Assembly (NCBI GenBank): GCA_021798115.1
Contig: JAJZYM010000002.1
Coordinates: forward strand, 111,159 to 147,026
Direction of reading: 5' to 3'
DNA: 35,868 nucleotides
From: Pseudomonadota bacterium
GTDB lineage: Bacteria > Pseudomonadota > Gammaproteobacteria > JAKAQQ01
Both the position numbers and the translations under genes were made by a program. Of the stretch, positions 9,541 through 35,868 are shown in pieces. Under the pieces are notes generated by a model. It saw only the letters and a program-made list of their open reading frames with translations, had not been told where the DNA came from and did not search any database. Position 1 is the first letter of the stretch. Every line of letters starts with the position of its first letter.

Positions 9541-10287
9541 TCAGTCGCCCCATGTCGTGCGATCCGTGAACAGTCTGTCGTGGGCTCGGAGGAGGCGATG
9601 GGCGGGAAGATCCGGATCGCCCTGGAGAAACCGTTGGAGTATCGCTTTTTTGTTTGGGCCCGTGACCAACCACAAGAGTCGTCCCGAGTTCTGGAGGGCC
9701 GGGTAAGTGAGGCTCACCCGGCGGACCCCTTGATAGGGTTTTCCGGTGGCGGCCACTGCGCGATCGTGCACCGTGAGAATGGAATCTCCCGGGACAAGAG
9801 ACGCCGTGTGTCCATCTTCTCCAAGACCGAGATGAACGATGTCGAAAAGAGGGCAAGCCCCTGCTTTGCCGAGAAGTCCCGGAACGGGCGAAGCCTGCTC
9901 ACCGGCGGAGGACGAGCCCAGGCGTTGGGCCAGTGTGTCTTCATACTCGCGAGCGGCCACTTCGGGCGTCGGGGCCGTATCCGTCGGAATCGGATAGAAA
10001 TGTGCATCCACCGGCAAGATGCGAACGATCTGACCCGCGTTGCTCCGGGGGTCGAGCGTCGGCACAAAACGCTCGTCAACCTGGAACAGATCCAGTTTCT
10101 GCCACGGTGGGTCGAAGGCTGCGAACACACGAAGCATGGCCCACGGGGTGGTTCCCCCTGAGAGGGCCAATCGGACACGGCGGCCATCGGCGGCGAGTGC
10201 GCAGACTTGCTCGTAAAGCCAACGTGCGGCTGAGCGGGCGCTCTCGGTTTCGCCCGAGGCGACGACAAGCTCGGGGATGGCGGTCAC
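9541..10287 (-). CDS. pgl: 6-phosphogluconolactonase
   Basis: Pgl hydrolyses 6-phosphogluconolactone to 6-phosphogluconate, the second step of the oxidative pentose phosphate pathway. The 248-residue protein has the NagB/Pgl fold signatures: the phosphate loop [12 protein letters not shown] (about 41-52), [10 protein letters not shown] (about 87-96), [11 protein letters not shown], and the catalytic-region [14 protein letters not shown]. The start is GTG at 10287, overlapping the zwf TGA by 4 bp (GTGA), so pgl is the last gene of a gnd-zwf-pgl unit with coupled translation. It matches the SugarP-isomerase-like Pgl family rather than the unrelated beta-propeller lactonases. About 140 bp follow before the DUF3311 gene; I see no clear terminator there. 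Confidence 0.96.
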
Positions 10288-11669: not shown

Positions 11670-12685
11670 CGGGTCGACTCCTCGTGATGGCCACCGAACT
11701 CCTCGCGCATGGCGGAGAGAATCTTGTCGGCGAAGAGGTTTTCGCCCCGGGACGAGAAACGGGCAAACAGGGCGGCGGCCAGCGTGGGGGCAGGTGACGC
11801 CGTGTCGATCGCTGCCTGAAGGGTCCAGCGTCCTTCGCCCGAGTCCGACACGCGCCCGCTCAGGTGTGCCAGATCAGGATCACGTGCCAAGGCGTCGGCC
11901 GTGAGATCAAGGAGCCACGAAGAAATCACGCTTCCTCGACGCCACAATTCGGCAACATCGGCGAGCGGCAGGCTGTAACGGTAGTTACCGGGTGTCTCGA
12001 GCGGTGTCTCTTCGGCACTGGCCTGTGCGGGCTGAAGCCCCCGATCGGCGTGACGGAGGATGTTGAACCCCTCCGCGTACGCGGCCATGACCCCGTATTC
12101 GATTCCATTGTGGACCATTTTGACGAAGTGCCCGGCGCCGCTCGGGCCACAGTAGAGAAATCCCTCGTCGGCTGTGGATGAAGAGTTTGTCTTGCGGCCG
12201 GGTGTGGGGGGGGCGGCGTCGCGTCCTGGTGCCAGCGCGCGGAAAATGGGCACGAGACGCGTAAACGCCTCTTGCGGACCGCCGACCATCAGACAGTACC
12301 CGCGTTTTTCGCCAAACACTCCGCCGGAGGTTCCGACGTCGAGATAATGAATGCCGCGGGTGGCGAGTTCCTGCGAGCGGCGCAGGTCTGCGGTGTAGTG
12401 GGAATTGCCTCCGTCGATGAGGATGTCACCACGGGCCAGACGCGGAACCAAGTCTTTCAGAAGGTCGTCGACCGCTCCTGCGGGGATCATCATCCAGACC
12501 GACCGCGGGGCGGGAAGGGCGGCGATCAGATTCTCGAGACTGTCCACGACCCGCAGCCCGTCTTGTGCAACCTTGTCGCGTGTCGCGGGAAAAGCGTCGT
12601 AAACCACAGGGCCGTGCCCGGATCGTTGGATGCGACGCGCCATGGCCGCTCCCATCCGACCCATCCCGATCATGCCTATGTTCAT
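11666..12685 (-). CDS. gnd: 6-phosphogluconate dehydrogenase (decarboxylating), short GndA/YqeC-like form
   Basis: The enzyme converts 6-phosphogluconate to ribulose 5-phosphate and CO2. The 339-residue chain is the short form of the family; the classical enzyme has about 470 residues. Motifs are the dinucleotide-binding [10 protein letters not shown] (3-12), VWMMIPAG (63-70), IDGGNSHY (90-97), [21 protein letters not shown] (116-136) and the catalytic [14 protein letters not shown] (185-198) with Lys189. Short-form enzymes are often NAD+-preferring, which I infer but cannot show. Residues about 153-174 ([20 protein letters not shown] and neighbours) look like a low-complexity insertion between the two halves. 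AAGGAG sits 7 nt before the ATG. The stop overlaps the zwf start by 4 bp. Confidence 0.95.
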
Positions 12686-12778
12686 CAGCGTTCTCCTTGA
12701 AGTGGAAACTGAAATCTTCCGATGCCTCGCGGAAAATCAGCGCTCGGCATGCGCCCGGTCGGCTTCGCTGACCGTCTT

Positions 12779-15394
12779 TCAGAGCGTCAGTAAATCGTCT
12801 AGGCGGACGCGCGCCACACGCATCCCGTGCTCGATGAGGGCCTCGTAATCCCCGTCGGCCTGGGCACGGATGACTTGTCCGAAGCCGTAACGACGGTCGG
12901 GAATGGGAAGTTCGCTCATCGTGTCGTCGACGATCTGGAGAAAGACTCCTTCTCGCGGCCCTCCTTTATGCAGTTGCCCCGTCGAGTGAAGAAAGCGGGG
13001 ACCAATTCCCAGAGTTGTGGCAGCTCCGGTTCGGTCGCGTAGGAGGGTACGCAGTCTTTGTAGTTCCTGAACCTTTGGCGATTCAGGGTCAATGTAGGCT
13101 TGTAGGGCAATGTAATCGTTCGGTTGAACCCGCTCGAGAATACGGGCCGGCGGTACCATCGCCGGGGAGGTGGTGTTTTCGGGGTGCTCGAGAATGCGCC
13201 CGGCGGCTTTCTTTGCCGACTCAACGTTTGGCTGATCAAACGCGTTGATCCCAAGGACGTGCCCCGCGACCGCGGTGGCGAACTCCCAGGCGAAGACTTG
13301 CCCGCCTATCGGAGCACGGTCAAGATCGTGATCGTGATAAACGGGATGCCCAGCCTCACGCAGGGCGTCGCGTGCTGCGTCGGGGCCGCCCAAGGCGACA
13401 AAGAGACGGTCGTGGCCGTAGTGGCCGGGCGGTGCGATCTCCTCGCCGACGATGGGCACGATCCCGCGCCCCTGCTTGCCTGTCGATTCGGCCAGGAGTT
13501 GTTCGAGCCAGCCGCCGAAGACGCGCAGGGGAGGGGGCAAAAGAATCGTGGCCTTGTTCCGTCCGGCTCGCGCGTGGAGCCCCAGGACAAGACCGAGTTT
13601 GACCCCCGGGTTGTGCCGGGCAGGCACGCTCGGCAGGCAGGCGTGCATCATGCATTCCGCTGCGTGCAGGAGTGGCTCGAGTGGGAGCCCGCGAAGAACC
13701 CAGGCGACAAGACCAAAATAGCTGAGGGCCGAATAACGGCCGCCGAGGGTTGGATCGTTGCGAAAAACCTTTAGGAATTCTCTCGATTTGGCCAGTTCGT
13801 CGAGCGGCGTGCCGGGGTCTGTCACGGCCACGTAGTGCCGTCCATTGGGGTCGCGAGACCAGAAAAGATCGAGTTGAGCCCTTGTTTCAAGGGTGGTCCC
13901 GGACTTTGAGGCGACGACGACAAGTGTCTCACCGGCACGATAGTTTTCTAGGCGCCGACGGAGAAAATCCGGGTGGCTGGTGTCGAGGATGTCAAGGCGA
14001 GGGGCTCCGCGGACGGGCGTGTCGAGACTTTGCGTGAAAGACGCGAACAGGCTCGAGCCGCCCATCCCGCACCAGAGGACGTGCCGAAAACCCTCCTGCG
14101 AGCAGCGTGCGGCAAAATCTTCAAGTTCCGTAACTTTGTGGCGCATCGCGGGCACGATGTGTAACCAACCCAGACGATTTGCGATTTCGTCCTGCTGGTG
14201 GCCCCAAAGCGTCCAGTCGTGCTTCCACAAGCGGGCGACGAGATCCTCGCGTTCGGCCTCCGCCAGGCTTTCGCCGAGCAGCGGGTCATTTTTGTGGGCT
14301 TCTTTGGGAACGGTGGTCTGGTGAAGGCGACGGCATTCCTTTTGAAGCTGTTCAATCAGGGATTGGAAAGAACGCACAAACGCGTCGCGCCCTTTGTTCT
14401 GAAGGTCGTTGGCCGCGTCTGCCAGGCTGATCCCGCGACTCAGAAGATCGGGGACGATGCGGGCTTCCTTCGCAGTCATCGTGGACACGGGCTTTCCTTC
14501 GTTGAGAAAAGCGAGAAGTGTGGCCTCCGGCACCGTATTGATGGTGTTCGGATAAATCAACCGCTCAACGTAGTACGCCTGCGAAAGTGAGGGATCCTTG
14601 CTGCTCGTGCTCGCCCAGAGAAGTTTCTGCGGTTGTGCTCCGTGGGCGGCAAGGCGTTTCCAGCGTTCCGTCGCGTACAGTCGGTGATGGGTGTCGTAAC
14701 AGTGGTACGCCACCGCCAACCCCAGGCGGTTGTGCATGCCGCTGTCCAACTGCGGATTCATGGCCGTGTCCCAGCGGGAGATAAAAACGGAAGCGACCGA
14801 AGGAACCCGGAGATCCAGATCCTTCGCAAGCCGCCTCTCGAGCCCACGGAAATAGGCTTCCGCGGCCCGTAAATACTGGCTTGGGGAAAAGAGCAAGGTC
14901 ACGTTGATCCCCACGCCCTCGGCGATCAACTCTTCGATGGCACGTGCTCCCGCGGCTGTTCCCGGCACCTTGATCAGAAGATTGGGGCGCTCAGCGAAAG
15001 CATGAAGCCGTTTCGCCTGCGCAATCGATGCATCGGCGTCATCGGCGAGACGGGGCGAAAGCTCTAGTGAAACAAAACCGTCCTGTCCCTGGCTTTCTTC
15101 GTGGATGGGCGCAAAGAGATCGGCAGCGGCCCGCAGATCCTCAAGAGCCAGCGCGAAGAAAAGGCCCTCGTGATCATCCTTGAATTGGGGGAGGAGGGCG
15201 CGCAGGACGTCGTCATAATCATGTCCCCGGGCCAGAGCGTGTTCGTAGATCGTGGGGTTCGAAGTGAGTCCACGTACTCCACCGGTGTCGATGTATCGGG
15301 CGAGGGTTCCGCTTGTGAGGAGAGCGCGGTGAATATTGTCAAGCCAGAGACTTTGCCGCTGCTGCCGGACCGCATCAATGCTGGTTGCTGACAT
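12779..15394 (-). CDS. Bifunctional transaldolase / glucose-6-phosphate isomerase fusion
   Basis: This protein of about 871 residues joins two enzymes. Residues 1-365 are transaldolase: GLTSNPTIYEHAL (42-54), INVTLLFS, and NLLIKVPGTAAGA with the Schiff-base Lys near 142; it moves a dihydroxyacetone unit between sugar phosphates. Residues about 385-871 are a phosphoglucose isomerase with its SIS-type phosphate sites: VLWCGMGGSSLFA and VVASKSGTTLETRAQ. The isomerase half interconverts glucose 6-phosphate and fructose 6-phosphate. Such fusions are known in several Proteobacteria and Cyanobacteria. I chose the ATG at 15394 because GAGG precedes it and a TATAAT promoter lies 40 bp upstream; an in-frame start at 15469 lies upstream of that promoter and adds residues unlike transaldolase. 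It sits 93 bp before gnd, in the same direction. The fusion would let fructose 6-phosphate from transaldolase return to glucose 6-phosphate for another oxidative turn. Confidence 0.96.
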   Translation of the reverse strand: MSATSIDAVRQQRQSLWLDNIHRALLTSGTLARYIDTGGVRGLTSNPTIYEHALARGHDYDDVLRALLPQFKDDHEGLFFALALEDLRAAADLFAPIHEESQGQDGFVSLELSPRLADDADASIAQAKRLHAFAERPNLLIKVPGTAAGARAIEELIAEGVGINVTLLFSPSQYLRAAEAYFRGLERRLAKDLDLRVPSVASVFISRWDTAMNPQLDSGMHNRLGLAVAYHCYDTHHRLYATERWKRLAAHGAQPQKLLWASTSSKDPSLSQAYYVERLIYPNTINTVPEATLLAFLNEGKPVSTMTAKEARIVPDLLSRGISLADAANDLQNKGRDAFVRSFQSLIEQLQKECRRLHQTTVPKEAHKNDPLLGESLAEAEREDLVARLWKHDWTLWGHQQDEIANRLGWLHIVPAMRHKVTELEDFAARCSQEGFRHVLWCGMGGSSLFASFTQSLDTPVRGAPRLDILDTSHPDFLRRRLENYRAGETLVVVASKSGTTLETRAQLDLFWSRDPNGRHYVAVTDPGTPLDELAKSREFLKVFRNDPTLGGRYSALSYFGLVAWVLRGLPLEPLLHAAECMMHACLPSVPARHNPGVKLGLVLGLHARAGRNKATILLPPPLRVFGGWLEQLLAESTGKQGRGIVPIVGEEIAPPGHYGHDRLFVALGGPDAARDALREAGHPVYHDHDLDRAPIGGQVFAWEFATAVAGHVLGINAFDQPNVESAKKAAGRILEHPENTTSPAMVPPARILERVQPNDYIALQAYIDPESPKVQELQRLRTLLRDRTGAATTLGIGPRFLHSTGQLHKGGPREGVFLQIVDDTMSELPIPDRRYGFGQVIRAQADGDYEALIEHGMRVARVRLDDLLTL

Positions 15395-27808: not shown

Positions 27809-27996
27809 CAGTGAGGGAGACCCAGCCCCTAGCCTTGGTCGAGAAATGTGGCAGAATCATATCCACGGCACAGGAACCGGAACACTCGGACGGGGAGGAG
27901 GTGTGCATTGAAGACGATCAACACTCAAAGGCTCCTTGTGAGAAGACCCTTTCAATGATACGCACGTCTTGGCGTTGACCCTAGGTAAATTTGCAG

Positions 27997-29031
27997 ATGC
28001 CTTCCAACGAGCGTACATCCGATCTGTCCCACACGAGTAATGTGCTGACAGCGCGTGCTCAAGATATTCTTGAGCAATACGAAGCTGTACGCAAAGAACT
28101 TGGAGAAACAATTGCCGAGCGTGACAATCTCCGCCAAAAAATGGAGCGCCTCTGGACACAGTTCCGTGAACTCGAGCAGGTCCTGGCCGACCCCGAGCAG
28201 GGGACAGCCGCTATTGTCTACTATCGATTGCGTGCTGTCTGGAGCATCTGCCAACAGCAGTTGACCACACTCGCCAGACAATCTGTTGACCGATTGATCG
28301 TCCCGGATCGTCAGCGGTACGAGCAAAAAATAGCGATTGCGCTACAAACCAAACGACAGGCCATGGAAGAGCGGAAGTCACAAATTCAAGCCGAGCGAGC
28401 GTCCATCAATGCCACCGTCATGCGCCTCGAAGAGGAGCTTAAAAAAAATACAGGCTTTCATCACACAATCGCACGGCGCGGCATCGAGCGGTCTCTACAG
28501 ACGGTTCGGGAACGCTTAATCCCTTACGATGCGCGAATCAAGGAGCTCGATAAACAAATTGAATCTTTGGATCAAGAGCCACTCCCTCCTTATCCCGGCT
28601 TGCCCATCAATATGCGCCGTGATATCAATCTCCTTTTGATAGCTCTCGCACAGCAAAATTATCTCCTTTTCCGCGCGGACAATGTTGCCGACCACGCCCT
28701 GACGGCCCACCGTAAGGCTCTCAAGGAGGTCTATTTCGGCACGCCAGCGGATTGCCAAAAGCTGGACCGATGCATTCGTGAAGCTCTGGTGACGTTCCGC
28801 AGCCGTAGCGCTGACAGTGCTTCGGTGCGGCGCCGTGCCTCGGATTTACGCTTGCAGGCTCGTTACCTGAGCGAGGAGCATACGGTACCTATTCCTGAAA
28901 CGCTGAACTTTATCCACGAAACCAGGATTTCGGATCAGAAGCGTGGCTTCGATTCTGATTTTGATCAACCCGTTCCCGTCAACGTTCTTGCTCTGAATTA
29001 CTGGAATCTTCAGGATGTTCTGATGTCCTGA
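27997..29031 (+). CDS. Coiled-coil protein of unknown function
   Basis: I do not recognise this 344-residue protein. It is soluble, with no signal peptide or membrane helix. Residues about 18-62 and 105-195 are strongly heptad-like and charged (LEQYEAVRKELGETIAERDN; RQAMEERKSQIQAERASINA; RIKELDKQIESLDQEP), predicting two coiled-coil segments. A shorter folded part follows (LPINMRRDINLLLIALAQQNYLL, then LDRCIREALVTFRSRSADSA), with a polar C-terminal 60 residues. No nucleotide-binding, nuclease or DNA-binding motif is visible. ATG at 27997 has only AGGT 10 nt upstream; TTG at 27991 is also in frame. It is probably its own transcript, convergent with prc. Base composition is somewhat more AT-rich than the left part of the window. 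A structural or scaffolding role is a guess only. Confidence 0.75.
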   Translation: MPSNERTSDLSHTSNVLTARAQDILEQYEAVRKELGETIAERDNLRQKMERLWTQFRELEQVLADPEQGTAAIVYYRLRAVWSICQQQLTTLARQSVDRLIVPDRQRYEQKIAIALQTKRQAMEERKSQIQAERASINATVMRLEEELKKNTGFHHTIARRGIERSLQTVRERLIPYDARIKELDKQIESLDQEPLPPYPGLPINMRRDINLLLIALAQQNYLLFRADNVADHALTAHRKALKEVYFGTPADCQKLDRCIREALVTFRSRSADSASVRRRASDLRLQARYLSEEHTVPIPETLNFIHETRISDQKRGFDSDFDQPVPVNVLALNYWNLQDVLMS

Positions 29032-29120: not shown

Positions 29121-31226
29121 CTAACCCCCCCGTACATTTTCTGCGGCGGCCCAGACGGCAGCCACATGTTCGGCAGCAATCAGCGGCATATCGGGAATGC
29201 GGAAATGGCGCCCTCTAAGCTGTGCTAGGGTATGTACAGGCGCCTGGCCAACGACATGTAGCCACGCGTTGTCCAGCAACAGTTGGCGTGCATCGCGAGC
29301 GTGTCTTTGGGCCTCGTAAGCCTTCCAATTGAGAGGAACGCTGCTGATTTCTTCGTCGTGACGTGCCTGTTCGATGGTGCGGACGTAGAGTTTATAGCGC
29401 GGATTGGTTCTGGCCCAAGCCAGAAACTCTTTCTTGATCATGGGAAGCACGTGCTCAAGACCTACGTGCATGACGGTATAAGGCGCTGCGGAAATCTTGC
29501 TCCACGGCAATGCGTTCGGTGAGTCTTCTTCGCCAAACTCGTTGTCGAGAAGCGTCGACGGAATGGCGATATCGGGCGTAATCCCACGGTCTTGTGTGCT
29601 GTTGCCGTTGATGCGATAGAACTTGGCAATGGTTAGCTTGATCTCACCCGCATGTAGCCCCGGAAGAATGCGGTGCAAATTCATCAAAGTTTGAACGGTT
29701 CCCTTCCCGTAGGTGCGGCTACCCATCACGATAGCACGGTGATAGTCTTTCAGGGCTGCAGTAAAAATCTCCGTCGCAGACGCCGATAGACGATTGACAA
29801 GAATGACGATCGGTCCTGTGTAGACAGGACCACGGTTGGGATCCGGCATGATTTGCCGTCCATCGGCGCTCATGATCTGGACCACGGGCCCTTTATTAAT
29901 GTAGAGCCCAATCGCACGGGCAGCCTCTCGAAGAGAACCTCCACCGTTATTGCGAAGCTCGAGCACCAAGGCATTCATTCCCTCGTGCTCCAACTGAAGC
30001 GTAAGCCGTTTCATATCACGGTAGGTGCTACGGTAATGTTTTTTGCCTTCCTGTTCACTGCGAAAGTCCAAGTAGAACGTTGGAAGTGTGATGATCCCGA
30101 TTTTGTAGATTTTGCGTCCAAGTGTGACGGGGACCAGGCGGGCGTGAGCCGCACCGCTTTTCAGTCGAATCGTTCCCCGGACGAGTGTTACAAGCTGCTT
30201 GGGCCCGCCGACAGGTGCCCCAGCGGGCAGGATGCTCAAGCGGACGATGCTGCCTTTCGGACCACGTATCATTTCGACAATACTGTCCAAACTGCGCCCT
30301 ACGACATCTCTCATGGCTCCCTTGGCGCCTTCGCCGACCGCTGTGATGCGATCACCAGGGTGCAGCTCCCCGTTTTTTTCCGCTGGGCCACCCGGAAGAA
30401 TACGAACGATCGTGGCATAACCGTCCCGCTCTTCCAGCTGTGTTCCGATCCCATGGAGTTTTAATGACATGGCAATCCGGAACTGCTGTTGGGCAATTGG
30501 TGAGAAGTATGAAGTGTGCGGATCGATCCCTTTCGCGAAAGCGGTCATGAACGTATCGAACACGCGATGTTGTGGGATCTGCCGTAAGCGTTTCAGTTGC
30601 CTTGTGTAGCGCCGGCGCAAAATCATGCGGGCTTGGGCCACGGTCTTGCCGTCGGCACGCAACCCAATGATCTCGCTTAGCAATCTCCCTTTCCATATCG
30701 ATTCGAGGCTTTTCAAAGATGGAGCCCACGGCGCATGCTCGCGAGCAAAAACAAACGATTGATGCCTCTTAAAGCTGTATTGACCTTGATGAAGGTAGGC
30801 AAGCGCGAAATGGAGCATCCGGGACACTTGATTTCGGTAGAGGATGTAAATACCGAAACCCGGGCGGAGATCGCCCCTCTCGAGGTCCTGGCTTAGATGC
30901 TGTCCGTACTGGTGTTCAAAAGACGCAACTTGTGTGGCCGTAAAGAAATAATGATCGGGGTCGAGGAGGTGCAAATATTCCTTGAGGATCAGTTGTCCGC
31001 GATGCCGGCTCATTTGCACGGGCGGGTAATGAAACCGTCGGACTTCGTCGTAAAAGATACGCGCAATGAGAACCTGTGCTGGACGTGGTGTCAGGTCCGC
31101 TACAGGAACCACCGCCTTGCCGGCGTTTGGCGTGACTTTCATCTGGGGCTTGGCAAGAGCTAGAGCCGTGGCTCCGGCGCCCAAGACAGCAAAAAAGATC
31201 GAAACGACAAAAAGGCTTCTGCGCAT
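29121..31226 (-). CDS. prc: Carboxy-terminal (tail-specific) processing protease Prc, S41 family
   Basis: Prc is a periplasmic serine protease that degrades or trims proteins from their C-termini, including lipoproteins and penicillin-binding proteins. An N-terminal signal (SLFVVSIFFAVLGAGATALALA) opens the protein. The N-terminal helical domain spans to about residue 240 (DPDHYFFTATQVASFE is typical). A PDZ domain lies near 250-335 (GIGTQLEERDGYATIVRILPGGPA). The S41 protease domain follows with KIGIITLPTFYLDF, LVLELRNNGGGSL, the nucleophile box RLSASATEIFTAAL (near 480-494), and the catalytic Lys in GSRTYGKGTVQ (near 508). A DUF3340-type C-terminal domain ends the 701-residue chain, which is of normal length. 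I use ATG at 31226; an in-frame GTG lies two codons earlier. It diverges from lipA over about 165 bp. Confidence 0.96.
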   Translation of the reverse strand: MRRSLFVVSIFFAVLGAGATALALAKPQMKVTPNAGKAVVPVADLTPRPAQVLIARIFYDEVRRFHYPPVQMSRHRGQLILKEYLHLLDPDHYFFTATQVASFEHQYGQHLSQDLERGDLRPGFGIYILYRNQVSRMLHFALAYLHQGQYSFKRHQSFVFAREHAPWAPSLKSLESIWKGRLLSEIIGLRADGKTVAQARMILRRRYTRQLKRLRQIPQHRVFDTFMTAFAKGIDPHTSYFSPIAQQQFRIAMSLKLHGIGTQLEERDGYATIVRILPGGPAEKNGELHPGDRITAVGEGAKGAMRDVVGRSLDSIVEMIRGPKGSIVRLSILPAGAPVGGPKQLVTLVRGTIRLKSGAAHARLVPVTLGRKIYKIGIITLPTFYLDFRSEQEGKKHYRSTYRDMKRLTLQLEHEGMNALVLELRNNGGGSLREAARAIGLYINKGPVVQIMSADGRQIMPDPNRGPVYTGPIVILVNRLSASATEIFTAALKDYHRAIVMGSRTYGKGTVQTLMNLHRILPGLHAGEIKLTIAKFYRINGNSTQDRGITPDIAIPSTLLDNEFGEEDSPNALPWSKISAAPYTVMHVGLEHVLPMIKKEFLAWARTNPRYKLYVRTIEQARHDEEISSVPLNWKAYEAQRHARDARQLLLDNAWLHVVGQAPVHTLAQLRGRHFRIPDMPLIAAEHVAAVWAAAENVRGG

Positions 31227-31391
31227 GAACACGAACCGTTATCCAGTGGGGTGGTGGAGAGCCCCGAGCGAGAGGGCAGGGGGGCACGAGTGGCGAACAG
31301 ATGTAACAAGCACATGTTAGCACGAGTTCCCTACACAATACGCCATGATGTATGCGACAATTAGGGTCACGGAAGCGGTGGGAACACCCCG

Positions 31392-32426
31392 ATGAGTGAA
31401 CGAACACGCATACGTGACATACCCGTGGTTCCCGCCGGCCAAAAATACAGCCGCCCGGAGGGATTCACCGCCATCCGCCACGGGGCGAAAGCGCGTGAAG
31501 TGAGCGACCTGCCACAACAGGCGACACAAAGGAAGCCGCCTTGGCTCCGGATCTCGATGTCGGGGGGTGCCGATTACGAGCGCGTCCACGCCCTGGTGGA
31601 GCATCATTCTCTTCACACCGTATGTCAAGAAGCTTTATGCCCCAACATCGCCGAATGCTGGAGTCGCGGAACAGCGACTTTTATGATTCTTGGTGCTGTC
31701 TGCACGCGGGCTTGCCATTTTTGCGCGGTCGATACCGGGAATCCCCGGGGCTGGCTGGATCCTGAAGAACCGGCTCATACGGCCCGTGCCGTGGAAGTCA
31801 TGGGGCTGCGCTATGTGGTTCTGACCTCTGTGGATCGGGACGATTTGCCCGACGGAGGCGCGAACCATTTCGCGGCATGCGTTCGGGCCATACGTCTTCG
31901 GACACCCGAAACCCAAGTCGAAGCTCTCACGCCCGATTTCCGGGGCTCGGAAGAGTCTGTCGCGGTTGTCCTCGACTCTGGTGTGGATGTTTACGCCCAG
32001 AATCTCGAGACCGTGGAACGGCTCACCGATCGGGTTCGTGACCCGCGCGCTGGCTACGGGCAGACATTGGCTGTCCTGGCCTACGCGAAAGCCCACCGCC
32101 CTGACATCTACACAAAAACCAGCCTTATGCTCGGTCTTGGGGAAACGAATGAGGATCTTGAGGCCTGTTTCCGTGATATCCGCTCGGCCGGAGTCGACAT
32201 CCTGACACTGGGACAGTACCTCCAACCCACCCGCAACCACCTTCCTGTTGAAAGGTTTGTCCCCCCTGAGGAGTTCCGTACCTACCGGGATCAAGCCCTC
32301 AGGCATGGGTTCCACGAAGTCGTGGCCGGTCCGCTTGTACGCTCAAGCTACAGAGCCGAGCAAGCCTTTGCCCGCAACAACGTGGGGTTGGATGGGGGAG
32401 AGGGCGAAGGCGTGACGAGCGCGTAG
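31392..32426 (+). CDS. lipA: Lipoyl synthase
   Basis: LipA is a radical SAM enzyme that inserts two sulfurs into octanoyl groups on lipoyl domains of pyruvate and 2-oxoglutarate dehydrogenases and the glycine cleavage H protein. The 344-residue protein has the auxiliary-cluster cysteines C78, C83 and C89 ([12 protein letters not shown]) and the radical SAM CX3CX2C cysteines C104, C108 and C111 (CTRACHFC). [29 protein letters not shown] and LMLGLGE follow. RSSY at 317-320 supplies the serine ligand of the auxiliary cluster. All catalytic elements are intact. The ATG at 31392 comes after a region lacking a clear Shine-Dalgarno sequence. LipB is not in the window, so the operon link often seen is absent here. 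Confidence 0.97.
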
Positions 32427-32466
32427 GCCCTCAGGTTGGGGGGATTTAGAGTATGTGCGCTACAGG

Positions 32467-32496
32467 TTGGCTCTTTTTGCTTCGATGTGGTACATT
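32467..32496 (+). promoter_or_regulatory. Possible sigma-70-like promoter of the TPR gene
   Basis: TTGGCT (32467-32472), an 18-bp spacer and TACATT (32491-32496) lie 69 bp before the ATG of the TPR gene. Both hexamers match consensus moderately. The stretch between lipA and the TPR gene is otherwise empty. Confidence 0.4.
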
Positions 32497-32564
32497 CTTC
32501 GCTGTGCCCGCGGGTTCCGTCGAGAGCGGTCTCCCCCGGCAGTCACCTATCTGATGAGGTCACC

Positions 32565-33878
32565 ATGAGAAAAGGCTACTGTTTGCGACTGTCCTCGATG
32601 GGCGTATGCGCCCTGGCGGTTGCTCTCTTACTGAACCCCAAGGCCGCGATGGCCAACCGTCTGGGACAGCATTATTCCCATAACAGATACATGCTCAATC
32701 ACACGGACTACTTGCACATCAAGCGGGCGGAGCATTTGATTAACAGGAAGGAATATGCGCGTGCGCGTCGGGGACTCGTCTCCTTTCTGTCGTTCGTCCG
32801 TTACGACCGTTATCCCAAGGCTTTGGTGCTTGATCTCATCGCCGAAACCTATCTTGACGAAGGGAACTATCGAGGGGCCGTTCCGTACATGGAACGGGCT
32901 CTGGCCGTTCACGGGTTGCCTCGAGCCCAACAAAGGAACCTGTCCTACAACTTGGTGATCGGATATGTGAACTCGAAACGGTATCACGCCGCGCTCAATC
33001 TCCTGAATCACATCCTCCCGCAGTTCCGTCACAAACCTCTCTCACTTCTCTCATTCGCTGCCGTCGTCCATTATCAGGCTGGCGATTATGTGGGAGCGAT
33101 GAATTACGCGCGAGAAGTCTTGGCCGCTGATCATACCGCCGGGAAAACCCCCGATAAGTCAGCCTACGAGATCATCCTCAACTCGGATGTCAAAGATAAA
33201 AATTATGCTCAGGCCGCACAGACCCTTCATGCCATGCTTCGCTATTGGCCGCACAACAGTACCTATTGGTCCGCATTGGTCAATACAGAACTCGAAATGA
33301 AGCACGACCGACGTGCGCTGGGAACGCTCAACCACGCCTATCAGTTGGGCTTGGTTCGGGATCAAGCGGATCTGCGCAATCTGGTTTCTTTGGAGCTCTC
33401 CTACGGCAACCCGGTGACTGCGGCCACACTCCTTAAGTCTCTCATCGCCTCGGGACGTATTCCCAATTCACAGCGCAACAAAGAGCTTCTCGTCGCCGCC
33501 TGGGCAAGAGCGCACAACACGGCAGAACTCGCTCGGGCCGTGGCGGCAGCCGCCCCAGGTGCGAAAACGGGAAGCATGTATATGTACGAAGCCAGCATGT
33601 GTTATCAGAAGAGCGACTGGGTGTGTGTGACACGCTCTGTTCGCAAGGCTCTCGCTAAGGGGGCGATGAGCAAAACCCAAACGGGGAATGCATACGTTCT
33701 TCTTGGCACGGCCTACGTAAAAAGAAAGCTGTATGGGCCTGCTCTTCCTGTGTTCAAAAAGGTACTTACAGGTTATGGCACAGGTGTGCACAAACAGGCT
33801 GCACAGTGGATCAAGTACCTTAGCTATCGTTTGAGCATTGAGGAAGCCCGTCACGGGCCTGGTGTCCTCAAGCCGTAA
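32565..33878 (+). CDS. Exported tetratricopeptide-repeat protein, TonB-system-associated type
   Basis: This is a 437-residue exported protein. The signal peptide is clear (MRKGYCLRL, hydrophobic SSMGVCALAVALLLNP, cut near AMA-N). The mature chain is a string of TPR-like helix pairs: LIAETYLDEGNYRGAVPYME, LSYNLVIGYVNSKRYHAALN, FAAVVHYQAGDYVGAMNYAR, LVNTELEMKHDRRALGTLN, and at the end VLLGTAYVKRKLYGPALPVF followed by KQAAQWIKYL. The succession 'HAYQLGLVRDQADLRNLVSL' and 'LIASGRIPNSQRNKELLVAA' resembles periplasmic TPR proteins that sit next to TonB-ExbB-ExbD genes in other Proteobacteria; no such genes are here, so this copy is an orphan in the window. GAGG lies a few nt before the ATG, which favours it over an upstream in-frame start at 32436. 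A strong terminator follows. Confidence 0.85.
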   Translation: MRKGYCLRLSSMGVCALAVALLLNPKAAMANRLGQHYSHNRYMLNHTDYLHIKRAEHLINRKEYARARRGLVSFLSFVRYDRYPKALVLDLIAETYLDEGNYRGAVPYMERALAVHGLPRAQQRNLSYNLVIGYVNSKRYHAALNLLNHILPQFRHKPLSLLSFAAVVHYQAGDYVGAMNYAREVLAADHTAGKTPDKSAYEIILNSDVKDKNYAQAAQTLHAMLRYWPHNSTYWSALVNTELEMKHDRRALGTLNHAYQLGLVRDQADLRNLVSLELSYGNPVTAATLLKSLIASGRIPNSQRNKELLVAAWARAHNTAELARAVAAAAPGAKTGSMYMYEASMCYQKSDWVCVTRSVRKALAKGAMSKTQTGNAYVLLGTAYVKRKLYGPALPVFKKVLTGYGTGVHKQAAQWIKYLSYRLSIEEARHGPGVLKP

Positions 33879-33957: not shown

Positions 33958-34177
33958 CGGAGCTTCTGAGACCACAAGTGAAGGGGACCCGCACGTCCGG
34001 GGGCCATTGAGACATGTTCATATTTGTTTGACGTGTTTTTGTTTAGATCAAAAAAATCAATCAATAGGATGATGGCCGTCAACTGACAAGAGATGGGAAC
34101 AGAAGAGACAGGAAACTTATCTGGAATGGACGTATAGTGGATTTCAGCTGTATAGACACTGGTAGGGAGATTTGCCG

Positions 34178-34717
34178 ATGAGCGCAGTGCGGAGCTTCTT
34201 CCCTTTTAGATTTGGGTCCATACTCGTCTTGGCAGTGGCGCTTGTTGCATGCACCCCTTATTACCAGGTTGGCCAAGGGGGCTACTCGGTATACTCCACG
34301 CAAAACTTAGGGGGAACATATCAATACGGTGGTTTTGAGGACACGTTTGGCCCTCCATCAGGCGGTTGGATCTATGGAAGCTATGGGTACCCGAATCTTT
34401 ATCCACTGTCTCCCAACTGGTATGTGTCTCCTTATCCCTATAGCCCTTATCCTGTGTACGGGCCGCCGGTGATCGTAGGATCGCCGCCGGCACCGCCACC
34501 CCCGTCAAACGGACCTATACCACCACCTCCGCCGGGTGGTATACCGCCTCCCCCGCCTGGGGCTGGCCCTCCTCCTATGGGCCCGCCCCCAGCTCCTGCG
34601 GGCCCACCGCCTTCTCCCGCCGGACCGCCCGGTGGGGGATACTCGCCGTTAATGCCGACGATTCCCAACCCAGTGCACCCCCATCCTTGCCCCGGTGGCA
34701 AATTCGTATGCCCCTAA
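34178..34717 (+). CDS. Proline-rich lipoprotein of unknown function
   Basis: This is a 179-residue protein with a type II signal peptide: hydrophobic SILVLAVALVAC, where LVAC is a good lipobox, giving an acylated Cys near residue 25. The first part of the mature chain is Tyr/Gly-rich (YYQVGQGGYSVYS, SPYPYSPYPVYGPP). From about residue 100 it is a proline-rich low-complexity stretch (PPPPPGGIPPPPPGAGPPP and similar) that could span peptidoglycan or bind a partner. It ends HPHPCPGGKFVCP, a cysteine pair spaced six residues apart at the very C-terminus. AGGGAG is 8 nt before the ATG; a TTG two codons earlier is less well placed. No enzymatic motif is seen. It may be expressed with the next exported gene, which starts 150 bp later. 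Confidence 0.8.
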   Translation: MSAVRSFFPFRFGSILVLAVALVACTPYYQVGQGGYSVYSTQNLGGTYQYGGFEDTFGPPSGGWIYGSYGYPNLYPLSPNWYVSPYPYSPYPVYGPPVIVGSPPAPPPPSNGPIPPPPPGGIPPPPPGAGPPPMGPPPAPAGPPPSPAGPPGGGYSPLMPTIPNPVHPHPCPGGKFVCP

Positions 34718-34867
34718 TTCTGGTCTGTCAACCTTTTTGAAGTTCGTGCGTTTTAGTTGCATGCATGAATTACTGACATTGGAGATGTTGATTGATCAAA
34801 GGGAAGATGGTGAACGATTTGTGTCAAGCTGCGGCGCCTTGCGCTCCTTACTCTTGAAGGAGGATTT

Positions 34868-35824
34868 ATGAAACACAAAGTCCGATGGTACGCCAGTGTT
34901 CTTTTGATTGTTTCTCTTGCCTTGATACCTGCGCCCAAAGCGCGAGCGGGTTTTTTTATTGGTCTCAGCGGAGCTAACTTCGCCTTTTCCATCAACAGTG
35001 GTCTTGGTGTCTATCAGGCCGCGGAGTATCCTGGATTTCTCTACTGTACGAACGTCTTCTGTTACCGGTGGGCGGGCTACGGATGGTATTACGCTCCCTG
35101 GGGTGGAGGGCCTTGGATGTTCGCACCGGCTGATTTTTTACTGCCTCCTCCCCTCGTCTATGGTCCGCCGCCACCTCTGGTCGTCGTCTACAGGCCGTAT
35201 TTTGTATGGTGGCGCGGGTACATTGGTCCGTGGTACGCCATTCACCACCCATTTTGGTGGCGTCAGAATCGCGTTTACATCACGCACTACACCGTATGGC
35301 GTACCCATGTGATCCGCACGTATGGGCCGCATGTCTCTTCCGCGGTCTGGACACGGCCTAGGGTCTTGGGCATGCGTCCTCGATTCTTACCCAAGAGTCA
35401 CCCGGATATTCATTGGGCGCAGCGTCAATGGGCAAGAAAGCGACCGGTTTTTTACGGTCGAGCCCCCATTGGAACTGCTTATCGCCAGCACCCCCAGTTT
35501 GGTCGTGCACGCCCGATGCGGCAGCCCATGAGACGCTTCGGCGGGCCCGCCGGGTTACGTGGCCCTCGAGGCACGGGTTTTCCACAAGGCGGGATGGGCA
35601 ACAGGATGCATCCTGTCCCCAACAGGGGTTACGGCTATCCGCAGGGGAGGGCAGGGCAGCCATTTCGACCTGTTGGACCTGGCATTCGTGGACCGGGCAG
35701 GGTCTATGGAAGACCTACGGCTCCGGGAATGCGTCCACAGATGTATCATCCTGCTCCGCTGAGGCGTTTACCGCAGCGCGGTGGAGGTCCACGTCGTTGC
35801 CGCAATCCCAGACACTGTTTCTGA
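34868..35824 (+). CDS. Exported protein, aromatic-rich N-half and Arg/Gly/Pro-rich C-half, function unknown
   Basis: This 318-residue protein has a Sec signal peptide (KHKVRWYASVLLIVSLALIP, cut after ARA near residue 27). The mature N-half is extraordinarily rich in Trp, Tyr and Pro (WAGYGWYYAPWGGGPWMFAP; YRPYFVWWRGYIGPWYAIHH). From about residue 160 the chain becomes basic and rich in Arg, Gly, Pro and Met/Gln. Two cysteine pairs are present: C60-X4-C65 (CTNVFC) early, and CRNPRHC (CX5C) just before the final Phe. A near-perfect GAAGGAGG lies 4 nt before the ATG, predicting strong translation. I recognise no domain with confidence. It looks like a surface or matrix protein. The window ends 44 bp after the stop without a visible terminator. 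Confidence 0.8.
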   Translation: MKHKVRWYASVLLIVSLALIPAPKARAGFFIGLSGANFAFSINSGLGVYQAAEYPGFLYCTNVFCYRWAGYGWYYAPWGGGPWMFAPADFLLPPPLVYGPPPPLVVVYRPYFVWWRGYIGPWYAIHHPFWWRQNRVYITHYTVWRTHVIRTYGPHVSSAVWTRPRVLGMRPRFLPKSHPDIHWAQRQWARKRPVFYGRAPIGTAYRQHPQFGRARPMRQPMRRFGGPAGLRGPRGTGFPQGGMGNRMHPVPNRGYGYPQGRAGQPFRPVGPGIRGPGRVYGRPTAPGMRPQMYHPAPLRRLPQRGGGPRRCRNPRHCF

Positions 35825-35868
35825 GAGCCTGAAAGATTACAAAGTTTGTTCGTGGTGTGTCATGCACG

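Follow-up and report, generated by a model that had tools for sequence, protein, structure and literature searches.

Genes and features of the locus

The window, as we call the whole stretch of DNA analysed (35,868 nucleotides, genome G000), ends with two adjacent genes on the forward strand, here named P1 and P2. The following features were found.

34178..34717, + strand: P1, Pro/Tyr/Gly-rich lipoprotein of 179 amino acids (ORF and translation)
34241..34252, + strand: P1 lipobox LVAC, with the lipid Cys25 (sequence)
34688..34714, + strand: P1 tail CPGGKFVCP (CX6C), which is CPRGKLVCP in genome G001 (sequence)
34858..34863, + strand: P2 ribosome binding site AGGAGG, 4 nt upstream of the ATG (sequence)
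34868..35824, + strand: P2, exported protein of 318 amino acids, mature pI about 11.5 (ORF and translation)
34949..35317, + strand: P2 aromatic core, residues 28-150, the conserved family domain (alignments A1/A2)
35045..35062, + strand: P2 early CX4C, CTNVFC, residues 60-65 (alignment)
35318..35797, + strand: P2 linker, Arg/Gly/Pro-rich and predicted disordered (composition, pI 12; pLDDT about 30-42)
35798..35821, + strand: P2 tail CRNPRHCF (CX5C), kept in the intact genus copies (sequence)

According to the ORF listing of the window, P1 starts at ATG 34178. Its translation has two Cys besides the lipid Cys, both inside the last nine residues. With Thr after the lipid Cys, P1 is expected from the E. 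coli rule to be sorted to the outer membrane. P2 starts at ATG 34868 with a type I signal peptide that ends in ARA before a G, and is first Trp/Tyr-rich and then Arg/Gly/Pro-rich. It contains four Cys, two in CTNVFC and two in CRNPRHCF at the C-terminus. Both terminal Cys pairs and the early CX4C named in the original prediction are therefore present, and the lipobox and signal peptide bear out its view that both proteins are exported. It had also suggested abundant product from P2; the basis of that suggestion is the AGGAGG site by itself.

For both non-lipid Cys of P1 to lie among the last 9 of 154 residues the chance is 0.003, and for at least two of the four P2 Cys to lie among the last 8 of 291 it is 0.004, both figures being computed after the fact from the given Cys counts and uncorrected for the search behind the original prediction. 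There is no sequence similarity between the two tails, so that what they share is the position and number of their Cys only. AlphaFold predicts the P2 core as a five-strand sheet followed by helices, with pLDDT about 76-84 over most strands; mean pLDDT is 46.5 for whole P2 and 64.6 for the core alone, and linker and tail have no confident model. Foldseek, run on these models of low-to-moderate confidence, gave no PDB match at E < 0.001 for whole P2 or core, and the PDB sequence search gave no significant match.

A scaffold gap of 100 N follows position 35868 immediately (G000:C7:147027-147126). The 127 bases before the gap are repeated exactly in the 127 bases after it, which likely fits an unresolved k=127 assembly-graph branch at a repeat of the P2 tail. 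The longest aligned stretch of the post-gap flank (163 bp, 88%) is with DNA downstream of a fusion gene of G001 described below, and the gap may conceal a second P2-like copy.

Upstream, the window harbors genes for the tail-specific protease Prc, for LipA and for a TPR protein (29121-33878). This prc-lipA-TPR block is kept in two other genera of the family, where it occurs without P1 and P2. Prc acts on C-termini, and its nearness to proteins with possibly capped tails is suggestive, not evidence. Next to the block there is an ORF of 346 residues without a Pfam match (27991-29031), and a similar-looking gene occupies the equivalent position beside prc in genome G006 (L143 2830-3897).

Conservation and gene fusion within the genus

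G001 is the only other well-covered species of the genus, and in it the order P1 to P2 and both terminal Cys pairs are kept. Its P1 orthologue, with lipobox LVGC, is 85% identical (dN 0.072, dS 0.29) and its P2 orthologue 92% identical (dN 0.041, dS 0.42). P1 thus diverges more than P2 between the two species, yet its terminal Cys and Pro are unchanged. P2 is under purifying selection. Non-synonymous against synonymous codon changes in P2 numbered 1/26 for the core, 21/30 for the linker and 0/5 for the final 18 residues, the tail figure coming from two species and from five silent changes, which are few. A third genome of the genus has matches to neither P1 nor P2, but being 65% complete it does not weigh either way.

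CRNPRHCF is identical in P2 of both species, in the post-gap fragment of G000 and in the G001 fusion gene. This fusion gene (L021 10581-11564) comes after P1 and P2. Its first 40 or so codons are P1-like and include the lipobox; what follows is P2, its four Cys all kept, so that the P2 core is encoded here as a lipoprotein. The switch is visible when the DNA is aligned, window positions 34166-34286 matching the fusion start at 77% and 34968-35861 the remainder at 87%. The fusion is the best evidence that the products of P1 and P2 would share one compartment, and at the level of genes it links P1 with P2 more directly than the Cys pairs do. It is followed by the gene for a second Pro-rich lipoprotein (12157-12990), this one lacking terminal Cys, and then by a chimera (13174-13686). 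The chimera combines a leader like that of P2 with an internal CQNPRLC and a Tyr-rich segment resembling P1. Directly 3' of P2 in the same locus there is a strong hairpin (10109-10185; 17 or more pairs, z -5.3), a possible terminator with no clear T run, whose counterpart in the window is cut off by the window end.

A divergent P2 copy, 60% identical in alignment, is also present in G001 (C54; L022 6240-7226). An in-frame TAA interrupts it behind RGQRGP; read on to the next stop, the frame gives YGRRCRNPRCCFTML. A CRNPRCC remnant is left shortly behind the TAA, and one Cys of the CX4C is lost. Since this copy retains an interrupted tail, the tail predates the split of these P2 copies, one of which no longer makes it. 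The copy adjoins a fragment of a Mutator-type transposase.

P2 relatives outside the genus

In single-sequence searches, 8 of the 9 host-family genomes examined, the window's own included, had P2 relatives, and 28 further genomes of the class had none; E-values in other genera went down to 3e-37. A profile of the A2 core extended this to another gammaproteobacterial family, with one strong match (G214, E 7e-45). It also matched five more genomes weakly (E 1e-4 to 1e-3), and of these G092 and G179 were read. No further relative of the core appeared at E <= 1e-4 in a phylum sample of 398 genomes, and Tblastn of the core against plasmids found nothing. In profile searches of Pfam, NCBIfam and PHROGs no family covered the tested proteins and none scored above its family cut-off. 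In alignment A2, 28 positions of the core are invariant. Most are Trp, Tyr, Phe, Pro or Gly, and the set includes (A2 numbering) W34, W39, G47-P-W, G65-PPPP, Y77-F, W80-W-R, H93-P-x-W-W and W110-R, and P2 fits this pattern. Judged by these signatures and within the libraries searched, P2 is a member of a real, undescribed, lineage-restricted family of putatively exported proteins. The absence of a known family for P1 and P2 agrees with the original prediction, which had seen here a candidate for an undescribed envelope or matrix system.

The Cys have another distribution. In the intact copies of the genus both P2 Cys pairs are present together, and elsewhere they are jointly absent. Of the 12 P2 homologues from other genera that were read intact, none carries Cys in the mature protein; any Cys in their open frames either precedes the start or belongs to the signal peptide. 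The early CX4C is replaced in relatives outside the genus, mostly by Tyr at both Cys (YGNGYY, YSDGYY). No homologue from another genus or from the other family has the terminal pair; their C-termini are instead Gly/His-rich, Arg-rich or Trp/Pro-rich. The Cys are dispensable for the core, which is retained by Cys-free relatives in other genera. In the core tree, many other branches of which are unresolved, the copies of the genus group into a single clade (support 100/99) with a long stem, and the P2 Cys were therefore most simply gained on that stem.

For P1, no relatives were found outside the host genus. G000 and G001 each encode its tail pattern a single time, the seven other host-family genomes not at all, and a P1-like neighbour is missing from every P2 locus outside the genus. 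The two features that the original prediction proposed to check, conserved terminal Cys pairs and conserved adjacency, thus hold in the two species of the genus and fail in its relatives. As those relatives have neither the terminal Cys nor a P1 neighbour, the pairing is, by the refuting test that the original prediction itself set, not general.

The surroundings and extensions of the Cys-free relatives also deserve description. In two other genera they adjoin a large protein (L023, L024, L025, L026, L028 and L032), which is a PAS-GGDEF-EAL protein where tested (L023), and fnr-like and hemN-like genes are nearby at some loci. This context is repeated and unlike that of the host. The relative at L032 is split across two frames. 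At L028 (9463-10482) the tail includes a tandem GQFHGGP repeat of about ten units, an example of how variable the extension is.

Comparison with known proteins

The literature on Pro-rich lipoproteins with C-terminal Cys provided analogues only. RcsF, an outer-membrane lipoprotein of E. coli, has a lipid anchor, a Pro-rich region and then periplasmic disulfide Cys (PMC5651002), a succession that P1 would share. This likeness is one of working, as no homology was found: the two disulfides of RcsF are non-consecutive and sit in a folded domain, whereas P1 offers only a bare end of nine residues in which one loop could form. With two non-lipid Cys alone, both in those nine residues, P1 is not an RcsF.

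Domain B of the Helicobacter pylori GroES protein HspA, for which a disulfide lasso and nickel binding have been shown (PMC5116745), resembles the P2 tail: in both cases a protein carries a lineage-specific C-terminal extension with Cys pairs and His that its relatives do not have. This too is a works-like comparison, for HspA is a co-chaperonin, whereas P2 is exported and its tail has two Cys and one His.

The two weak profile matches that were read (G092 and G179) are short, partly Pro-rich lipoproteins of other gammaproteobacteria, of about 130-150 amino acids. They match about 50 residues of the P2 core, share with it YxxGxYYxYxxxxWY...GPW, and lack the Trp/His second half, the basic extension and the terminal Cys. 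They have no match in Pfam or NCBIfam.

What the terminal cysteines may do

We consider it plausible, at somewhat under an even chance, that P1 and P2 are structural envelope proteins of one genus, each tail forming a small intramolecular disulfide loop. P1 would sit in the outer membrane as a lipoprotein, a Pro-rich stalk on a Tyr-rich base, and be the membrane-anchored neighbour of P2. P2 would be secreted and consist of the aromatic core module and a long, very basic, disordered Arg/Gly/Pro extension, by which it probably covers or bridges anionic polymers of the envelope (LPS or peptidoglycan). The CX6C of P1 and the CX5C of P2 would each close through the periplasmic Dsb pathway, the resulting loops capping the flexible tails, and the CX4C of P2 may form a second local disulfide. 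The Cys count, lipid Cys excluded, is even in both mature proteins (two in P1, four in P2). The joint presence or joint absence of the two P2 Cys pairs, the loss of one CX4C Cys in the C54 copy whose tail lies behind a stop, the purifying selection on P2, the fusion gene and the single clade of the genus copies also speak for this reading. Against it count the low model confidence for linker and tail, the two species on which tail conservation is based, and the Cys-free cores of other genera. DsbB is encoded in G000 and G001; the Pfam DsbA model had no match in the host-family genomes. The sequence-based side of this proposal comprises the export signals, conservation, genus restriction, the fusion, the shuffling of modules in the G001 locus and the DsbB gene, and from it we infer a disulfide state, a pairing, binding partners and a structural role.

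The two genes may also be adjacent and functionally separate, each having gained its own terminal Cys pair independently. We regard such a coincidence as unlikely. It would account for tails without a common sequence, for the lack of P1 wherever P2 homologues occur in other genera, and for the second Pro-rich lipoprotein of the G001 locus, which ends without Cys. However, gene order and both tails are jointly kept in two species, one fusion gene joins a P1 leader to a P2 core, and the chimera of the same locus has CQNPRLC next to a P1-like Tyr-rich segment.

Rather unlikely, in our view, though the chief rival on chemical grounds, is that the terminal Cys and His are soft-metal ligands, the His in the Gly/His tails of other genera doing the same job. 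Two Cys and one His lie within eight residues of the P2 tail, the P1 C-terminus is HPHPCPGGKFVCP, and five closer homologues from two other genera have His-rich ends (e.g. GGHGGGHIPHQN and HGHGHGHGHGHGR); a lineage-specific Cys/His tail that binds nickel is already known from the C-terminus of HspA (PMC5116745). Compared with the remainder of the extension, however, the last 15 residues are only weakly enriched in His/Cys (shuffle p 0.003 to 0.37), and no metal transporter or regulator was recognised among the neighbouring genes examined. Moreover, G214 and four more distant copies end without Cys or His, and periplasmic Cys tend to oxidise unless metallated.

Two further readings would use the Cys to hold proteins together. 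It is improbable that P1 and P2 are two components of a genus-specific, disulfide-linked envelope layer arising from a recombining cassette that duplicates and shuffles modules (lipoprotein leader, aromatic core and Cys tail), a shuffling of the kind seen in the fusion and the CQNPRLC chimera of G001. Also improbable is an intermolecular network in which the terminal Cys form P1-P2 or P2-P2 disulfides and so build a matrix particular to the genus. The Cys stand at the free ends of tails predicted to be unstructured, the composition is the low-complexity one of structural proteins, and the cassette is multi-copy; the close spacing of CX5C and CX6C, however, makes the pairs more apt to self-close.

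A common anchoring signal had been suggested in the original prediction. Such a shared C-terminal sorting or anchoring signal, recognised by an enzyme of its own as PEP-CTERM and LPXTG are, is very improbable: the Cys position is fixed at the C-terminus of both proteins, but the tails have no common motif and no hydrophobic segment precedes them, and since CxNPRxC was found to end an open gene only in P2 copies and the P1 pattern only in P1, neither being seen to mark other gene ends, we reject it. Heme binding, raised in the same place, is unlikely as attachment of the c-type cytochrome kind, CXXCH being absent from both proteins.

Significance

The original observation is correct and its interpretation is partly borne out. 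The tails of P1 and P2 look like a local, genus-level elaboration of an undescribed envelope family and not like a general system. Of the undescribed envelope system originally foreseen, the unannotated protein family stands within the libraries searched; a system defined by terminal Cys pairs fails outside the one genus. A lineage-specific feature can resemble a system if one genome is read alone. If the tails do link P1 and P2, they would be a small, young case of an envelope layer built and diversified by the shuffling of leader, core and tail modules. The unannotated family of exported proteins to which P2 belongs is now defined by its YGPPPP / WWR / HPxWW core.
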